Part shown: positions 1,015-26,668 of the stretch, one piece after another
Layout of the letters: the number at the start of each line of letters is the position of its first letter
How positions within the stretch are numbered: the first letter of the stretch is position 1
Origin: Eggerthellaceae bacterium
GTDB lineage: Bacteria; Actinomycetota; Coriobacteriia; Coriobacteriales; Eggerthellaceae
NCBI GenBank assembly: GCA_030533105.1
Contig: JAUNJT010000006.1
Coordinates: 1-34,267, forward strand
DNA length: 34,267 bases
Direction of reading: 5' to 3'
Translations under genes and position numbers: made by a program
Notes under the pieces: model-generated
Database searches by the model: none
Told to the model about the DNA's origin: nothing
The model's input: only the letters and a program-made list of their open reading frames with translations

Positions 1015-2859
1015 CTACTCTTCGGCTTCCTGAGCTTTGGCCATCGCCAATCTCTTGCAGATCAAGAGCTTCTCGGAATTGTCGAAGCGGTTTCCATCGC
1101 CGAGGAACTCGAATCCTTCGATCATCTGGGCATGGTTTCCAACATAGGTCAGCGCCTTCGAGACGCTGTCGATGTCCTTGACATCTTCGAAGAGCAAAAG
1201 CGCATGGAGCGATCCCGCGAATGCCCCGACGATGGTGTTGTCTATCGTATTGGTGAGCGAGCTCACGACGATTCTGAACGACGTGTAGCCATCTTTGGCC
1301 CATTCCTCGGCAATCCAGTCATTGACCTGCTCGTTCGCGTCGTAAGGCTCCTTGCCGTCGAAATGGACGATCTCAAGGCCGTTTTCGGTAGCGTACTCGT
1401 AGATCTTCGTTACGCGACCCTTGGTGGTACCGACGAAGACGATGCGCTTGAAGTCTCCGATCACGTCTAAGATGCGCTCCGGCCCCTCCTCGCCATCGAC
1501 GTTGAACACTGGCGTGTGATTGACGTAGACGTAGGGCATGAGCGAGAGAAGCGAGATGCCGTAATTGGGATCGAGTGCCGAATAGACGATCGCCGTCGAG
1601 TTCCAGGTGGCCCCCATCGACTTGAAATGCCGATACGTTTCCGTTGAATCGAGGCAGAGGTCCGATTCGAGGACGGTGACGAGCGGTGTGTAATCCTCGT
1701 GCGAGAGCCCTCGCGCGATCTCTTCGGCCGATGTCTTCGTCCCTATGGCGTAAACGGTCTGGGGTCTGGATTTGAACGCGGTGAGCGTCGTCGCACTCGG
1801 GATAGCATCGTTATGGAGGTATTGCGGCGTTGTATTCAAGAAGCCGCAAACGCTTGTTGCGATGTAAGCGTCGATCGAGCGGGTATCGTTGAAGAGCACC
1901 ATAGCGGGGCTATCGATGCATTCAGCGGCCTCGGAAAGCTTGATCGCGGTATCGAAACGGTCCGTTCCGCAAATGGAACGGGGGATCTCGATGCTCTCCT
2001 CGTCGAATTCGAAATTGAGTGCATCCAAGATGGCCTTTTCGGCCTCGTTGCTTCCGACGCGTCCGCCGAGCAGGCGGTATAAGCCGCAAACCTCTTTGGC
2101 ATCGCCTAAGATGCGCGTGTTGCCCTTCTCGATCCAGATGGCCTTGTTGCAGAGACGCTCGATCTGGTTCGTATCGTGGGATACGATCAAAACGGTGACG
2201 TCGTATTCCTCGATGAGCGTTCGGATGCGATCCTCGCATTTCTGTTGGAACATGAAGTCGCCGACGGCAAGCACCTCGTCGACGATGAGCAGGTCGGGGA
2301 CGATGATGGTGGCGATAGCGAACGCGATGCGCGCAACCATGCCCGAGGAATAGTTCTTAAGCGGGATATCGAGGAAGTCCTGCACTTCGGCGAACTCGAC
2401 GATCTCATCGAAGTGCTGGTTGATGAATTCCTTCGAGTATCCGAGCAAAGCGCCGTTTAAGTAGATGTTCTCACGTGCGGTGAGGTCCATGTCGAAGCCA
2501 GCGCCGAGCTCGATGAGCGGGGCGATATGCCCGTTGACGGTGACCGATCCCTCGCTTGGCTCGAGCACGCCGGCGACGACCTTGAGCATCGTCGATTTAC
2601 CGGAGCCGTTCGTGCCCAGGATGCCGAACACGTCGCCTTTGCGGACCGTGAACGAGACATCGTTGAGGGCGCGCAGTTCCTTGAAGCGCAGCTCGCCATG
2701 GGCGATGGCGATGAAGTATTCCTTGAGGCTGTTGAGCTGCTCGCTCGCCATATTGAAGATCATCGAGACATGATCGACATCGACCATGACCTCTTTCGAG
2801 GCGTCATCTTCGAACTTAACGCGTCGCTCGATTTGGGAGTTTATGGTGTATCGGGGCAT
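1015..2859 (-). CDS. Polysaccharide ABC exporter ATPase (Wzt/TagH type) with C-terminal CWB2-like triple repeat
   Basis: This is the ATPase subunit that would power export of a wall or surface polysaccharide through the permease encoded just upstream. Residues 25-265 form the nucleotide-binding domain: Walker A GTNGSGKST (82-90), signature YSSGM (170-174), Walker B LLIVDEVLAVGD (190-201) and H-loop His228. Residues about 296-600 are not the usual Wzt carbohydrate-binding beta-sandwich. They read as three cell-wall-binding-2 (CWB2) repeats: ICGTDRFDTAIKL then VYAIGT; LDSTETY then VVYSALDPNYG, NHTPV and RIVFVGTT; and a third with IDNTIVGAFAG and FLGDGNRFDN. No signal peptide or membrane segment is visible, so the repeats should be cytosolic. 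The start is backed by AAGGTGAT upstream of ATG. It follows the permease gene after 19 bases. The ATPase call is secure; the CWB2 assignment is by pattern and awaits a profile search. Confidence 0.93.
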   Translation of the reverse strand: MPRYTINSQIERRVKFEDDASKEVMVDVDHVSMIFNMASEQLNSLKEYFIAIAHGELRFKELRALNDVSFTVRKGDVFGILGTNGSGKSTMLKVVAGVLEPSEGSVTVNGHIAPLIELGAGFDMDLTARENIYLNGALLGYSKEFINQHFDEIVEFAEVQDFLDIPLKNYSSGMVARIAFAIATIIVPDLLIVDEVLAVGDFMFQQKCEDRIRTLIEEYDVTVLIVSHDTNQIERLCNKAIWIEKGNTRILGDAKEVCGLYRLLGGRVGSNEAEKAILDALNFEFDEESIEIPRSICGTDRFDTAIKLSEAAECIDSPAMVLFNDTRSIDAYIATSVCGFLNTTPQYLHNDAIPSATTLTAFKSRPQTVYAIGTKTSAEEIARGLSHEDYTPLVTVLESDLCLDSTETYRHFKSMGATWNSTAIVYSALDPNYGISLLSLMPYVYVNHTPVFNVDGEEGPERILDVIGDFKRIVFVGTTKGRVTKIYEYATENGLEIVHFDGKEPYDANEQVNDWIAEEWAKDGYTSFRIVVSSLTNTIDNTIVGAFAGSLHALLLFEDVKDIDSVSKALTYVGNHAQMIEGFEFLGDGNRFDNSEKLLICKRLAMAKAQEAEE

Positions 2860-6074: not shown

Positions 6075-6237
6075 GGAACGCGCTCCTTTTGTGGAACAGG
6101 TCATGCGCTGCAAAACGCGCTGCATTCAAGACGGTTGTCTCTACGATGATACATGAAGAGTTTTTCGCATTCGTGATAGTTGACCGTATAACACGACAAC
6201 TGCAAAAACCATCAGCTCATCTTCGCCAAGATGGCGG

Positions 6238-8114: not shown

Positions 8115-9056
8115 ATGAGGATACTGATCACGGGCGGTTTGGGACAGCTGGGCAACGAGCTTTCACGCTGCATTTCAACCGGCAGGGCGGAGATCGGCCC
8201 GATCCCCGCATCGTATGCTGATGCTGATGTGACATGCATCGACTACCACGAGCTCGACATCTCCGACGAGGCTGCGGTCGACGCATGGTTTGAAAACTAC
8301 GGCCCTTACGACCTCGTCGTCAATTCCGCCGCGATCACCAACGTCGACGGCTGCGAGAAGGATGAAGAGGGCGCGCACCGCGTCAACGCCGATGCCGTCG
8401 GGTATCTCGCCCGCGGAGCGGAAGGATGCGGAGCGAAGTTCGTCCACATCTCGACCGACTACGTCTTTCCTGGAACCGATCCCGTCCCGCGCACCGAAGA
8501 TGACCCGACCGGTCCGATCTCCGCATACGGCCGCACGAAGCTCGACGGCGAGAAGGAGGCGTTCGCGAATTGCAGCCGGACCTTCGTCTTGCGCACTGCG
8601 TGGCTGTATGGCTATGTCGGCAAGAACTTCGTGAAGACGATGGTGGGGCTTGGTTCCAAGCTCGATCACGTCACGGTCGTCGATGACCAGCTGGGCAATC
8701 CCACGAGCGCCAATGATCTTGCTTACGAGATCCTCTCGCTTGCCGATACCGATTGCTTTGGGCTGTTCCACTGCACCAACGAGGGGACATGCTCCTGGGC
8801 CGATTTCACCGAGGCGATCATGGAGGGCGCGGACCGCGATTGCGCGGTCGTGCGTTGCACCTCCGCCGAGTATAAAGAGAACAATCCGCAGAGCGCAGAC
8901 CGTCCGGCGTACTCCTCTTTGGAGAACCGCCATTTGGTACAGACTATCGGCAATAAGATGCGTCCATGGCAAGAGGCGCTCTCGACATACCTCGCCAATA
9001 TGCCCGCTCTCGCGAAGAATCCCTCGTGGGACGATTTGACGCAACCAGCGAAGTAG
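8115..9056 (+). CDS. rmlD: dTDP-4-dehydrorhamnose reductase RmlD
   Basis: This is the last step of dTDP-L-rhamnose synthesis: NAD(P)H-dependent reduction of dTDP-4-keto-L-rhamnose. The 313-residue short-chain-dehydrogenase-like protein opens with the nucleotide-binding loop GGLGQLG (7-13). It contains STDYVF and the catalytic Tyr-Lys pair in SAYGRTKLDGE, then LRTAWLYG and FHCTNEG, as in RmlD. GGGGGAG lies before the ATG. It lies between rmlA and rmlB, not beside rmlC, and is not fused to RmlC as it is in some other actinobacteria. Confidence 0.95.
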   Translation: MRILITGGLGQLGNELSRCISTGRAEIGPIPASYADADVTCIDYHELDISDEAAVDAWFENYGPYDLVVNSAAITNVDGCEKDEEGAHRVNADAVGYLARGAEGCGAKFVHISTDYVFPGTDPVPRTEDDPTGPISAYGRTKLDGEKEAFANCSRTFVLRTAWLYGYVGKNFVKTMVGLGSKLDHVTVVDDQLGNPTSANDLAYEILSLADTDCFGLFHCTNEGTCSWADFTEAIMEGADRDCAVVRCTSAEYKENNPQSADRPAYSSLENRHLVQTIGNKMRPWQEALSTYLANMPALAKNPSWDDLTQPAK

Positions 9057-20363: not shown

Positions 20364-22463
20364 TTATTCGGTGCAATCCCAAACCTTTCCTGTTTGGTGC
20401 CAGTTGCCGAAGTCGAGCACGTATCCGTCGATCTCGTATTCGATGAACTCGTAATCATTCGTGCCATCGTGCGTGGGATGGACGTAGTAGCGGACGCGCG
20501 ACTCGCCCTCGGCGGTCTCATCGAAGGCGGTGCCGTACTTGCTCCCGTCGCCGGTGATCGCCTTCATGATGGATGCATGGAGGTCGAATTGGCTGATGGG
20601 GGCATCCGAGTACACGAACGGGTCGTTCTGAGCCTCGCCTTGGTTCGCGGGCTTGACGAGCATGATGGGGCTGCCCGGCCTATCTAAGACATGATCGGGA
20701 CCATCGCCCCAGAACCAGTACCCATGGTCGGCGGTGATGACGATATAGGAGTTGTCATACACGCCGAGTTCTTTGAGCTGCTTCAGGTACTCGGAAACCA
20801 TCTTCATGACGCCAAGGCCCTGTTGATCCTCGGTGACCTCTTGGCCATCGGATATCTGCTTGCCGTTCTCATCGATCGTGTAGGGGATATGGACGCCGAG
20901 CAAGTGGATCAGGCGGAACGAGCCGACTTCGTCTTTGTTGATGCTGAGCCCGATATCCTGGAGCCTCTCGTAGTAGCGAGCATCGTTCATGACGTAAACG
21001 GTCTTCGCGGGATCGTCGGCCGAACCGGCGGATTGGGCCATCGACTCGTTGATCTCGTCGGTGTAGAACCAGAAGAAGCGCTTCAAGATCCATGGCATGT
21101 CACGGTATAAGGATGCCTTGTACATGACCTGGACCGTTGATACCGCGTTTAGGGTGGTTGCTTCGATGGGATGCATGTTCATGGCGCGTTCGGTGGTGTA
21201 GGCGAAACCCGCAGCCGTCTCAGCGCCGCTAACGCCGAACGTGTCGGTATAGATGCCCAGAGAGTAACCGGTTGCTTTCAAATCATCCAAGAACGATGAG
21301 CGCTCGTAGACCGTCGAGAGATAGTGCGAGTAGGTCTCATCGTGCTGGATGAATTCTCCAGTCAAGAACCAGGGGAGCGCATACCTCGTCGGCGCGATCG
21401 TGCCACCGACATCGCGATAATACGTGAACCCTGTCATCTCATCGAGCATATCCGGGTTGCTCTGCATGAGCCAATCGAGCTCATAGACGTCGTACGTATC
21501 TAAGACGAACACGATGACGTTGTTCTTATCGGATATGTCATAGAGACCATCTTCGGTTAGGTAGGTGCTCGTATCCTTAGAGGACTTGCCCATGATGCCA
21601 GGGTCGGTGAACAGGCTGCCGATGCCGACGGCTTCGACGATGGCGACGCATACCGCAAGGATGCACAGGACGTTTCTACACAGCGTCGGCTTCTTCCAGA
21701 AGAACACGGCGATCGCGGCGATGCCCACGAGCCAGGAGAAGCCGTTCAGGAGCGTGACCTTGGTGTAGTTCCACCAATCGACCGCCGCGCCGTTCGCACT
21801 CGGGAGCTTCGCGTTTCCGAAAAGCGCCTGCAGATAGCAGAGGAGACCGAGGCCGATGAAGAAGATGACGGCGATGTTGAATGCCTTGCCGCGAAGAAGC
21901 GAGATGAGCAGGGAAAGCACGACCCAGATGATCAAGCCGGCGAGGGCGATGGGCTGCCAGGTCTCGGCAAGGCCGAACAGAAGGCTGCCAGATGCGCCGC
22001 CGATGAGCTCATACGGCGTTGCAACGAAGAGCGTGAACGTGAGGAAGAATGCTGCGATAGCTGCGAATCCGAGGCGCTTGGGCCAGGAGAGCTTCTGAGG
22101 CTCCTTCTTCTTTATGGTGATAAGGTCGCGTGCGCGCTCATCGGCATATGCATGTGCATCCTCATCGTCACTGGCGATGCGGGAGACTTCCTCCTCGACC
22201 GACTTTCCCGCGTTCTCATCGATCTTGAGCAACTTGAAGATCGCTTTGCGCGATCTGCGGAAAGCGACGCCGGCAACTGCGCCTAAAGCGACGGCAACGC
22301 CCGCCAAGGCCTGGATCGTGTAGGTCATGACGGACGGGTCGACGTAAGCGTATGCGTCTTCTACAAGTGCGAACGAGCAGATGGCTGCGACGACGATGAG
22401 CGCCACGGAGTCGAATGCGGCGATGGTGCAGCGTTTCGCGATTGCAACGGTGCGGCTAGTCAT
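20364..22463 (-). CDS. Membrane sulfatase-fold (LtaS-like) hydrolase/transferase, intact paralogue
   Basis: This 699-residue protein has roughly seven membrane spans in residues 17-285 and an alkaline-phosphatase/sulfatase-type domain at about 310-645, probably extracellular. Metal and nucleophile candidates are Asp322 (VFVLDTYD), Thr in GTIAPTRYALPW (355-366), His525 (LLGVHIPY) and Asp579-His580 (TADHGYW), the same order as in LtaS phosphoglycerol transferases. A conserved VDPSVMTYTIQALAG block (41-55) is shared with the gene at 24734. The start overlaps the end of the YidC/TagF-like gene by eight bases, with GAGGTG upstream, so the two are likely translationally coupled. It may move a phospho-group onto the exported glycan, as GacH does in streptococci; this is inference. 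Confidence 0.88.
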   Translation of the reverse strand: MTSRTVAIAKRCTIAAFDSVALIVVAAICSFALVEDAYAYVDPSVMTYTIQALAGVAVALGAVAGVAFRRSRKAIFKLLKIDENAGKSVEEEVSRIASDDEDAHAYADERARDLITIKKKEPQKLSWPKRLGFAAIAAFFLTFTLFVATPYELIGGASGSLLFGLAETWQPIALAGLIIWVVLSLLISLLRGKAFNIAVIFFIGLGLLCYLQALFGNAKLPSANGAAVDWWNYTKVTLLNGFSWLVGIAAIAVFFWKKPTLCRNVLCILAVCVAIVEAVGIGSLFTDPGIMGKSSKDTSTYLTEDGLYDISDKNNVIVFVLDTYDVYELDWLMQSNPDMLDEMTGFTYYRDVGGTIAPTRYALPWFLTGEFIQHDETYSHYLSTVYERSSFLDDLKATGYSLGIYTDTFGVSGAETAAGFAYTTERAMNMHPIEATTLNAVSTVQVMYKASLYRDMPWILKRFFWFYTDEINESMAQSAGSADDPAKTVYVMNDARYYERLQDIGLSINKDEVGSFRLIHLLGVHIPYTIDENGKQISDGQEVTEDQQGLGVMKMVSEYLKQLKELGVYDNSYIVITADHGYWFWGDGPDHVLDRPGSPIMLVKPANQGEAQNDPFVYSDAPISQFDLHASIMKAITGDGSKYGTAFDETAEGESRVRYYVHPTHDGTNDYEFIEYEIDGYVLDFGNWHQTGKVWDCTE

Positions 22464-24390
22464 TGTCCGCACCTCGCTTCTCACTGGCATCCTTCGCGTG
22501 CGCCTTCTGTTTCTCGAGGATATCCTGCAGAAGATATTCGCCCGCAGCTTGCGCGCCGTGGCCGATGTTGAAGATATGGTCGCTTCTGACCTTATCGATG
22601 CGTGCCTTCCACGATTGCTGATCGGAGAGCATATTCGCAGCAACTTGGCCGATCTCTCCTGCGTGTTCCGGCGCGATGGAGATGCCGATGAGGTTGCGCA
22701 GCGAGATGTCGCTCGGCTCGATTCCGAGCTCTTGCCACTTCGGGTTTCCGACTTTCATGGGCGTATCGATGAAGATCGAGGGCTTGAGCGTCGAGAACGA
22801 GAACTCGCACGCGGTCGACGACCAGTCGGTTACGAGGATGTCGGAAGTGAAGATCGATTCATGGGACGAGAAGTCGCGCTCGAAATACAGCTCGTCTTCC
22901 GGGACGCGTGCATAACGCTGCTGCAACGCTTCCCAGCGGGCCTTATAGCGCTTCGTATACTCGGGGTGCGGGCGGACGATGATCTTCCAGCCATGCCCGA
23001 GCATGGATTTGAGCATGTCATCGATGCAGGTATCGAGGATATTGTCCTCCTGCCACGAAGGGGCGATGAGCAGCGTAGGAACGGGATTCTTCTTGCCGGC
23101 AAGCGCCGTATACGATGCGATCTCCTCATCGAGCAGGTCGTAACCGCATTTGATGAGCTTCTTGCGCTTAAGCCCGTAGAGCTCTTCGGCACGTCTGATC
23201 TCGCGTGCCTGATGAGGTCCGGCGCACAGTATCGTGTCGTAATGATCGTAGGCTTCCCGCGCAGGGGTCAGGTGCGTTGACATCATGTGATGGAACATGA
23301 ACACGTACTCGACATCCTTGCGGACATACGAGCGCTTGATGTAGTAGTTATCCAGATCCTCCAAAGTCGACACGACGATGTCGGCATCCATCTTCATCAT
23401 CAAGGTGATGGCGCGCTTCTCGCCGATGTAGTAGGGGATGATGCGCGGATTGGTCTTGGAGAGTTCGAATACCTGGTCGTTCGGATCGTTGGTAACGTAA
23501 TGGATGACGGTATTGGAATTCGCGAGCAGATAGCGGATCGCGCCCTTGAAGTATTTGAAGAAGCCGCTTCCCTCGGAATAGAACACGATGTGCTTGTTCA
23601 CGATATTCATGAAGCGCTTGTAGTCGGCCTTCTCGCGTTTCGCGAGCGGGTCGCGCTGATACCACTTGGTCTTGCGCTCGGCATCGAGGGCGTTGAGCGC
23701 CTCGAATTCCTTGCGCGATTCCTCCAGATCCTCGTAGTCGATGTACTTCTTCGGCTTGATGATGATATTGCAGAGAACCTGGACGAGGATGGCGCTTAGG
23801 TTCGAGCAGATCCAGTAGAAGGCCATGCCGGCTGCAACGAAGATGCCCAGGAAGAACGAGAGCGCGATCGAGAGGCCGTTGGTGAGATTCTTCTCTGCGC
23901 GGGTTTGCTCGCGCTGGAGCGGGTTGATGCGATTCTGAGCGAAGCCCATGAGCACGGCGGAAAGGCCTGCGAGGATTGGCATGATCCAGGAAATGCCGCC
24001 ATCGGTGAAGGGGACGAGGCCCAAGAACTCGGTTCCGGGGGCGCCGTTATCGGTGATGGAGTGGATGACGTCAACCAAACCGAACAGGATGATGATCTGA
24101 ACCGCAAGCGGTACGAGGCTCAAAAGGGGATGGTAGTGTTTTTCCTTATAGAGTGCGTTCTGCTTCTCGCCAATGGTCTCGCTATCTCCGAAGTACTTGA
24201 TTTTGATACGGAATAGATCCGGCATGAGCTGCACCATGACGATGGCGTTCTTCTGGCACCAGAGCGCCATGGGCATCAAGATGACTTTGGTGATGAGCGT
24301 GAACAGGAGGATGGCGATCCACCAATTGCCCGTCAGGTCGTAACATGGCTGGACAATCAGCGACAGAACGCTGGCTATTGCTTCAAGCAT
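22456..24390 (-). CDS. YidC/Oxa1-like membrane domain fused to CDP-glycerol glycerophosphotransferase (TagB/TagF-like) domain
   Basis: This is a 644-residue fusion. Residues 1-215 resemble the YidC/Oxa1/Alb3 core: LTGNWWIAILLFTLITKVILMP, a charged hairpin ending KQNALYKEKHYHPLLSLVPL, and further membrane spans to about 210. Lys35 stands where insertases have the groove Arg. A charged linker (215-265) leads into residues about 265-625, which look like a TagB/TagF glycerophosphotransferase: FMFHHMMSTHL (365-373), CAGPHQ (389-394), APSWQEDN (443-450), IVRPHPEY (471-478) and TDWSST (521-526). TagF-like enzymes add glycerol phosphate from CDP-glycerol to a lipid-linked glycan. TAGGAGG lies upstream at an 11-base spacing. 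The next gene overlaps its stop. The fusion is evident from one uninterrupted reading frame; whether the YidC-like part inserts proteins or only anchors the enzyme is unknown. Confidence 0.87.
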   Translation of the reverse strand: MLEAIASVLSLIVQPCYDLTGNWWIAILLFTLITKVILMPMALWCQKNAIVMVQLMPDLFRIKIKYFGDSETIGEKQNALYKEKHYHPLLSLVPLAVQIIILFGLVDVIHSITDNGAPGTEFLGLVPFTDGGISWIMPILAGLSAVLMGFAQNRINPLQREQTRAEKNLTNGLSIALSFFLGIFVAAGMAFYWICSNLSAILVQVLCNIIIKPKKYIDYEDLEESRKEFEALNALDAERKTKWYQRDPLAKREKADYKRFMNIVNKHIVFYSEGSGFFKYFKGAIRYLLANSNTVIHYVTNDPNDQVFELSKTNPRIIPYYIGEKRAITLMMKMDADIVVSTLEDLDNYYIKRSYVRKDVEYVFMFHHMMSTHLTPAREAYDHYDTILCAGPHQAREIRRAEELYGLKRKKLIKCGYDLLDEEIASYTALAGKKNPVPTLLIAPSWQEDNILDTCIDDMLKSMLGHGWKIIVRPHPEYTKRYKARWEALQQRYARVPEDELYFERDFSSHESIFTSDILVTDWSSTACEFSFSTLKPSIFIDTPMKVGNPKWQELGIEPSDISLRNLIGISIAPEHAGEIGQVAANMLSDQQSWKARIDKVRSDHIFNIGHGAQAAGEYLLQDILEKQKAHAKDASEKRGADND

Positions 24391-24559: not shown

Positions 24560-24733
24560 CTACTCGAAGCAGCTCCATACTTTGCCAGTCGTATGCCAGT
24601 TGCTAAAGTCGAGGGTGTATCCATCGATCTCATATTCGATGAAATCCGTGTCGTCGGGCGGGACGTCGATCGTAGGATGGATATAGGTGCGCACTCGATG
24701 CGCATCTTCATAAACCTCTTCGAAGGCGGTGCC
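24560..24733 (-). pseudogene. C-terminal remnant of the truncated sulfatase-fold gene
   Basis: Directly after the TAA at 24734-24736 the same frame stays open for 57 codons to TAG at 24560-24562. The translation matches the paralogue's tail: GTAFEE versus GTAFDE, then YIHP versus YVHP, FIEYEIDGYTLDFSNWH versus FIEYEIDGYVLDFGNWH, and TGKVW in both. The full ancestral gene is therefore 24560-26668, and the break is one base. The intact reading of the remnant suggests the mutation is recent. Confidence 0.9.
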
Positions 24734-26668
24734 TTATTTGGATCCGTCGCCAGTGATGGCTTTCATGATGGATGCATGCAGATCGTACTGGCTTATCGGG
24801 GCATTCGAGAGCTTGGCGGGGCCGTCTTGATCCCCCGCACCGGCTTTCTTGACGAGCATGATGGGGCTATTGGGGACAGCAAGCGGCACTTCATCCCAGA
24901 TCCATGTGCCATGGTCGCAGGAGATGATGATGGTCGTCTTGTCGTAGACGCCCAGCTCCTTGAGCTGATGGAGGTACTCGGAGACCATCTTCATGACGCC
25001 GAGGCCCTGGCGGTATTCGTTGCTCATCGTCCCTTCGGGCACTGTGTTGCCATTCTCATCAAGGTTGAACGGCTCATGGATTCCCATCAGGTGGATGATG
25101 CGGAAGGAGCCCGTATCGTCATCGTTGATGCGCAGGCGGGTTTGCTTGAGCTTTTCGTAATAGCCCGCATCGTCCATGACGTAGGGCGTGTTCGCCGGAT
25201 TGGTGCCCGGTTCGTTCTTCTGGGCCATGGCCTGGTTGATCTGGTCGGTATAGAACCAGAAGGCCGGCTTTGCCACCCACGGCAGATTGCGATAACAGGA
25301 TGCCTTGTACATGACCAGCAAAGCCGCGGGGACATCTAAGCCGATCGTCTCGATGGGCTTGATGTTGAAGGCGCGTTCTGAAACGTATTCGATGCCATGG
25401 GCAGCTTCTGCTCTCGTCGCACCGAACGTGTCGGTGTAGATGCCTATCGAGTAACCGGTTGCTTTCAAGTCATCGAGGAAGGTCGAACGATCGTAAATGG
25501 TAGAAAGGTAATGGGAATAGAGCTCGTCATGCTGGATCATCTGGGCGGTCATGATCCAAGGGAGGGCATATCTGGTCGGCGCGATCGTGCCCGATACATC
25601 GCGGTAATAGGTGAAGCCCGTCATCTCGTCGAGCATGTCAGGATTCGTGCTGTACAGATAGCTGAGCGTCGCGTTGTCATACCAATCGAGTAAGAACAAC
25701 ACGACGTTTTGCTTATCGGAGATGTCGAACAGGCCATCCTCGGTGACATACGCTTCCGTATCGTTCGCGGACTTTCCCATGACGACCGGATCGAAGAAGA
25801 GGCTGCCTACGCCAACCGCTTCGACGATCGCCACGCATACGGCTAAGGCGCACAAGGCGTTCCGGCACAGCGTCGGCTTTCTCCAAAGAAAGATACCGAG
25901 CGCGGCGATGCCTAAAAGCCACAGGATGCCGTTGATGATCGTCGTTGCCGTGAAGTCGCCCCATACAACCTCGGTGCCATCGGCGGAGGGGAGGGATCCA
26001 TTCCCGAAAAGCGCCTGCAGATAGCAGAGCAATCCGAATCCGATGACGGAAACGATGGCGACATTGAAGCTTTTGCCTTTAAGAAGCGAGATCAGGATGG
26101 CGATCACGATCCAGATGACGATGCCGGCTATGGCGAAGGGCCTCCATGTTTCGGAAAGGCCGAACATGAGGCTTTCCGATCCTCCGCCGATCATCTCGTA
26201 TGGGGATGCGACGAAGAACGTGAATGTGAAGAAACCCGAAGCGATGATTGCGAACAAGAAGCGCGACTTCCAAGAGGCCTCACCTGTGCTGTTCTTCGTC
26301 GTCGAGGCGATCATCCTTTTCGCTTGCCTGTCCGCAACGGCATGCGCCCGCACATCGCCCTCCTCGATGCGGAACACCTTCCTCTCGACCGTCTTGCCGG
26401 CGTTCTCGTCGATCCGGAGCAGATTGAAAAGCACCCTTCTCGTTCTTCGGAAGGCGACTCCGGCAACCGCTCCGAGCGCTACGGCGACACCGGCGAGCGC
26501 TTGGATCGTGTAGGTCATGACGGAGGGATCGACATACGCGTATGCGTCCTCGGCGAATCCGAGCGCGACGATGGAAGAAATGCTTACGAGGGCAAACGCA
26601 TCAAAGGCGGCGATGACGCAGCGCTTTGCGATAGATGCACTACCTTTGTGTCGTCTGTTCGAAGCCAT
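24734..26668 (-). CDS. Membrane sulfatase-fold (LtaS-like) protein, truncated by a nonsense codon
   Basis: This 644-residue reading frame is paralogous to the 699-residue protein encoded at 20364 over its whole length: the same VDPSVMTYTIQALAG block, about seven N-terminal spans, VLFLLDWYD, GTIAPTRYALPW, LMGIHEPF and SCDHGTW. It ends at TAA directly after GDGSK, where the paralogue continues with Tyr (TAC). The catalytic residues come before the stop, but the C-terminal 58 residues are lost. The ATG at 26668 has only a weak site (GGCGGA) 23 bases after the DUF4422 gene. It may be inactive, a shortened active form, or rescued by readthrough; sequence alone does not tell. Confidence 0.85.
   Translation of the reverse strand: MASNRRHKGSASIAKRCVIAAFDAFALVSISSIVALGFAEDAYAYVDPSVMTYTIQALAGVAVALGAVAGVAFRRTRRVLFNLLRIDENAGKTVERKVFRIEEGDVRAHAVADRQAKRMIASTTKNSTGEASWKSRFLFAIIASGFFTFTFFVASPYEMIGGGSESLMFGLSETWRPFAIAGIVIWIVIAILISLLKGKSFNVAIVSVIGFGLLCYLQALFGNGSLPSADGTEVVWGDFTATTIINGILWLLGIAALGIFLWRKPTLCRNALCALAVCVAIVEAVGVGSLFFDPVVMGKSANDTEAYVTEDGLFDISDKQNVVLFLLDWYDNATLSYLYSTNPDMLDEMTGFTYYRDVSGTIAPTRYALPWIMTAQMIQHDELYSHYLSTIYDRSTFLDDLKATGYSIGIYTDTFGATRAEAAHGIEYVSERAFNIKPIETIGLDVPAALLVMYKASCYRNLPWVAKPAFWFYTDQINQAMAQKNEPGTNPANTPYVMDDAGYYEKLKQTRLRINDDDTGSFRIIHLMGIHEPFNLDENGNTVPEGTMSNEYRQGLGVMKMVSEYLHQLKELGVYDKTTIIISCDHGTWIWDEVPLAVPNSPIMLVKKAGAGDQDGPAKLSNAPISQYDLHASIMKAITGDGSK

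Follow-up and report, generated by a model that had tools for sequence, protein, structure and literature searches.

A premature in-frame stop codon followed by an intact tail in one member of a tandem gene pair for putative surface-polymer transferases of an Eggerthellaceae genome

A disrupted gene and its tandem paralogue

The window analysed here is a stretch of 34,267 nucleotides from an Eggerthellaceae bacterium (GenBank assembly GCA_030533105.1, contig JAUNJT010000006.1, positions 1 to 34,267), the source genome being a fragmented draft of 212 contigs and 1.67 Mb that is 89% complete. On the minus strand, an ORF of 644 codons (26668-24734; body at 24737-26668, delineated by the ORF itself, hydropathy, Pfam, alignment and a structure model) is closed by a TAA at codon 645 (24736-24734). 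Past this TAA, whose sequence context occurs only once in the genome, the frame stays open for 57 codons (24563-24733) until a TAG (24562-24560), and this tail is translated as GTAFEEVYEDAHRVRTYIHPTIDVPPDDTDFIEYEIDGYTLDFSNWHTTGKVWSCFE. The truncation costs 58 of the 702 residues, the final ~8% of the protein. An intact tandem paralogue lies on the same strand at 20364-22451, with a C-terminal sequence that reads ...GDGSKYGTAFDETAEGESRVRYYVHPTHDGTNDYEFIEYEIDGYVLDFGNWHQTGKVWDCTE; its reading frame stays open as far upstream as 22643, but homology starts near 22451. The two copies are 63-64% identical, the value over the full length, body and tail together, being 64%. They are separated by a minus-strand gene (22456-24390) that encodes a fusion of a YidC-like domain (PF02096) with a CDP-glycerol glycerophosphotransferase (PF04464). 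On re-reading of the window, the coordinates and the description given in the original prediction (TAA, 57-codon tail, TAG and tandem paralogue) proved correct.

The neighbourhood comprises Rml (dTDP-rhamnose) genes, glycosyltransferases, an ABC exporter, LicD and the YidC-glycerophosphotransferase fusion. Because the cluster holds rhamnose, glycosyltransferase, export, LicD and glycerophosphotransferase genes, a role in polymer decoration seems most likely. By analogy, both tandem genes probably encode LtaS/GacH-like membrane-anchored transferases of a rhamnose-polymer cluster, and the enzyme would probably decorate a rhamnose-containing surface polymer with a group linked through phosphate, for example glycerol phosphate. 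Elsewhere in the window (1015-2859, minus strand), an ABC-exporter ATPase is extended at its C-terminus by a long stretch with a weak match, below the cut-off, to the CWB2 cell-wall-binding domain.

Conservation of the tail and selection acting on it

Two same-genus genomes were available for comparison, isolate SIG42 (L034) and isolate RGIG2580 from goat jejunum (L035), both metagenome-assembled Eggerthellaceae. Their orthologues are 88-90% identical to the disrupted gene, have TAC (Tyr) at codon 645, keep the tail open and end at the same TAG, which is thus the ancestral stop. The original prediction had foreseen that TAC in related strains would make the TAA an error or a private mutation, and this is where the comparison leads. 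We then considered an alignment of 36 Coriobacteriia sequences, the disrupted copy and 35 homologues with tandem paralogues among them. All 35 homologues extend across the tail region and none has a stop at codon 645. Tyr645 is at least 90% conserved in this alignment, and no variation is seen at Arg660 or Trp691. The TAA as a natural end of the gene, an alternative put forward at the outset, is rejected because every aligned homologue continues. The stop is private to this genome, as judged on one genome per species. A single in-frame stop is also carried by each of two further homologues in the order (G138:C1:989227-990864, TGA; G130:C3:89744-91456, TAA), which speaks for a recent nonsense mutation in the gene described here.

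Variation in copy number and structure was also observed in this family. Tandem arrays of three paralogues are present in Olsenella-like and other Coriobacteriia (L038 5803-12481, L039 1314-8085 and L041 3583-10751). In one MAG (L040), both tandem copies lack the same N-terminal segment (6130-6160 and 8180-8230), and a frameshift seems to be present there in the second one as well; recombination between the copies or misassembly may account for this.

The tail has been under purifying selection. Compared with the sisters, dN/dS is 0.02-0.05 in the tail and 0.08-0.09 in the body. Moreover, the changes in the tail that are private to this genome comprise 12 synonymous and 2 nonsynonymous ones, a pattern with P about 2e-7 under neutrality. 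It follows from these two observations that translation of the tail went on for almost the whole period since the lineages separated. The L034 orthologue departs from the window at only 3 of the 57 tail residues, and this, together with the 12:2 synonymous bias, excludes a chance homology of the tail. The tail was constrained like the body and hence translated until very recently, and the stop must be very recent if it is genuine at all. No decay was seen elsewhere in the gene, and the differences around the site are ordinary synonymous ones. Gene conversion from the paralogue was considered and rejected: the two copies are about equally similar along the whole gene, and the orthologues are closest throughout the part for which this was computed.

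Predicted fold and consequences of the truncation

Hydropathy indicates several transmembrane segments in the N-terminal part (residues about 12-290), and most of an LtaS/sulfatase-fold catalytic domain (residues about 316-644) lies in the retained body. The Pfam sulfatase match is sub-threshold for the disrupted copy and above threshold for the paralogue. A profile search of the PDB gave LtaS (2w5q, E 4e-10), a weak sequence match; GacH was not among the matches listed, which is no evidence of its absence. A structure model was built from 20 sequences. Its overall pLDDT is 52, the membrane part being poor and much of the catalytic domain good. The modelled catalytic domain resembles sulfatases and Listeria LtaS and LtaP with Z scores of 18-21 over residues 318-702 (LtaS 4uoo, Z 18.6; LtaP 4uop, Z 18.8 over residues 319-696). 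The tail is modelled as three beta-strands (659-667, 673-682 and 691-699), with pLDDT values mostly of 62-89.

Residues D328, T365, D585 and H586, which we take to be metal and nucleophile residues by analogy with LtaS, are invariant in the alignment and all lie upstream of the stop. According to the model, the truncation would keep these residues and delete the three strands together with Arg660 and Trp691. Because three strands and two invariant residues would be lost, along with Tyr645 itself, the truncated protein would most likely be unstable or lack activity.

Origin of the stop and the streptococcal precedent

To place the stop against a genome-wide background, about 0.52 Mb of this genome, sampled by contig number, was compared with 1.37 Mb of the sister. 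Among 244 matched genes (83,238 aligned codons), the disrupted gene was the only convincing mid-gene stop with good length and identity, and the same comparison revealed no convincing reverse case, in which the sister would be stopped and this genome open. Many other apparent stops fell near 5' ends; the long-gene cases checked were over-extended ORFs with a usable downstream start, and those in short genes look like shadow frames. One match (L143, 65% identical), with a stop at codon 141 of 349, is divergent in the region of that stop and was not taken as convincing. An error-riddled assembly was rejected for the part sampled, given this lack of other convincing mid-gene stops. There were 11 candidate frameshifts in this genome, against 8 in its sister; of the two inspected, one was a gap of N characters in secD. 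This is a ten-N scaffold gap (L140, 9521-9530, G000:C19) preceded by sequence that disagrees with the sister genome, and the gap with its mismatched flank points to a local error in the draft assembly. In a separate case (L121 near 14281, G001, compared with L164), a gene of 1520 codons whose start resembles a CoA-enzyme activase is open in this genome, and in the sister genome a change of frame at residue 369/370 breaks it in two.

Four explanations had been proposed initially: a recent inactivating mutation, a sequencing error, a phase-varying or strain-specific switch and stop-codon readthrough. The first two, the second widened to assembly error, survive our analysis, and the latter two found no support. 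We consider it probable that the TAA is a recent private nonsense mutation, giving a loss-of-function allele of one of the two tandem transferase genes. A single substitution would have turned the TAC of Tyr645 into TAA, and the loss could be tolerable in living cells owing to the intact tandem paralogue or to a changing need for decoration. What speaks against such a mutation is the fragmented state of the draft, the secD gap with its mismatching flank and the reliance on one genome per species. These same features of the draft favour an error in the consensus, arising from base calling, assembly or a mixture of strains, in which case the gene would be intact in the organism. We regard this as the less likely of the two, though a real possibility. 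By our own estimate, a consensus with an error rate near 1e-4 at each base would be expected to contain about one stop in 83,238 codons, and the absence of decay in the rest of the gene is compatible with an error. Moreover, a 'stop' in gacI of S. pyogenes was not confirmed by Sanger sequencing (PMC12282279). However, the 244 genes compared yielded no other convincing mid-gene stop, the window contains no N characters, no long homopolymer run is present at the site, and the nearby differences are of the ordinary synonymous kind noted above.

Readthrough, programmed or incidental, would yield some full-length protein from the gene as it stands, and an intact tail that was under selection would be in keeping with it. 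Yet neither the sisters nor any homologue has the stop, so that conservation of the tail is uninformative on this point, and translation before the mutation explains the selection observed. TAA also terminates 99 of the 210 genes checked, and since the sister stops at the same codon in 79 of these 99, TAA is a working stop in this organism; its recoding as a sense codon is ruled out on the same grounds. The genome gave 38 tRNA matches, and among the seven whose anticodons were read none was a suppressor (UUA). We consider readthrough very improbable. Hardly any weight is given either to a 644-residue protein that is functional, as a new shortened form or as part of a switch. Its presumed catalytic residues do precede the stop, but the missing part is present in every relative, with its invariant residues and three strands, and an analogous GacH truncation is inactive (PMC12282279). 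As for a switch, no repeat able to flip the codon back was found: the site has no simple repeat, direct repeat, inverted repeat or invertible element, the sole direct repeat being an imperfect one of 19 nt away from the site, and phase variation is not supported. It is likewise very doubtful that the truncated protein is selected and functional, or that useful readthrough occurs, with tandem enzymes differing in dose and so tuning polymer decoration.

A private nonsense codon in such a gene is nothing unusual, and streptococci offer a direct precedent. In S. pyogenes, 12 of 2021 genomes carry a premature stop in gacH, and glycerol phosphate is no longer added when the stop falls at residue 773 of 824, from which the authors concluded that the final 50 residues of GacH are crucial (PMC12282279). 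If the nonsense mutation that we favour is real, it suggests that uncultured gut Eggerthellaceae, like streptococci, lose surface-polymer decorating enzymes related in type to LtaS/GacH through nonsense mutations. The general picture is unchanged by this finding.

The disrupted protein has its catalytic fold in common with the LtaS/LtaP and YejM-type membrane enzymes of the alkaline-phosphatase superfamily. In contrast to LtaS, it falls far under the cut-off of the NCBIfam LtaS equivalog (16.2 and 17.9 bits against 970), and is by score not a true LTA synthase; it also has an N-terminal YVDPSVMTYTIQALAGVAVAL motif common to the Coriobacteriia relatives. With gacH it shares a membrane part, an extracellular catalytic domain and a place in a rhamnose-polymer cluster, a likeness confined to architecture and gene context. 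The stop resembles the gacH nonsense alleles in lying near the C-terminus, with ~6-8% of the protein lost, and in being sporadic, as those alleles are found in a minority of genomes. The gacH alleles come from cultured strains in which loss of activity was shown, whereas the allele described here comes from one draft genome and its function is predicted. Finally, unlike gacH, the disrupted gene has a tandem paralogue, and, if the stop is real, tandem copies may act as a buffer against its loss.
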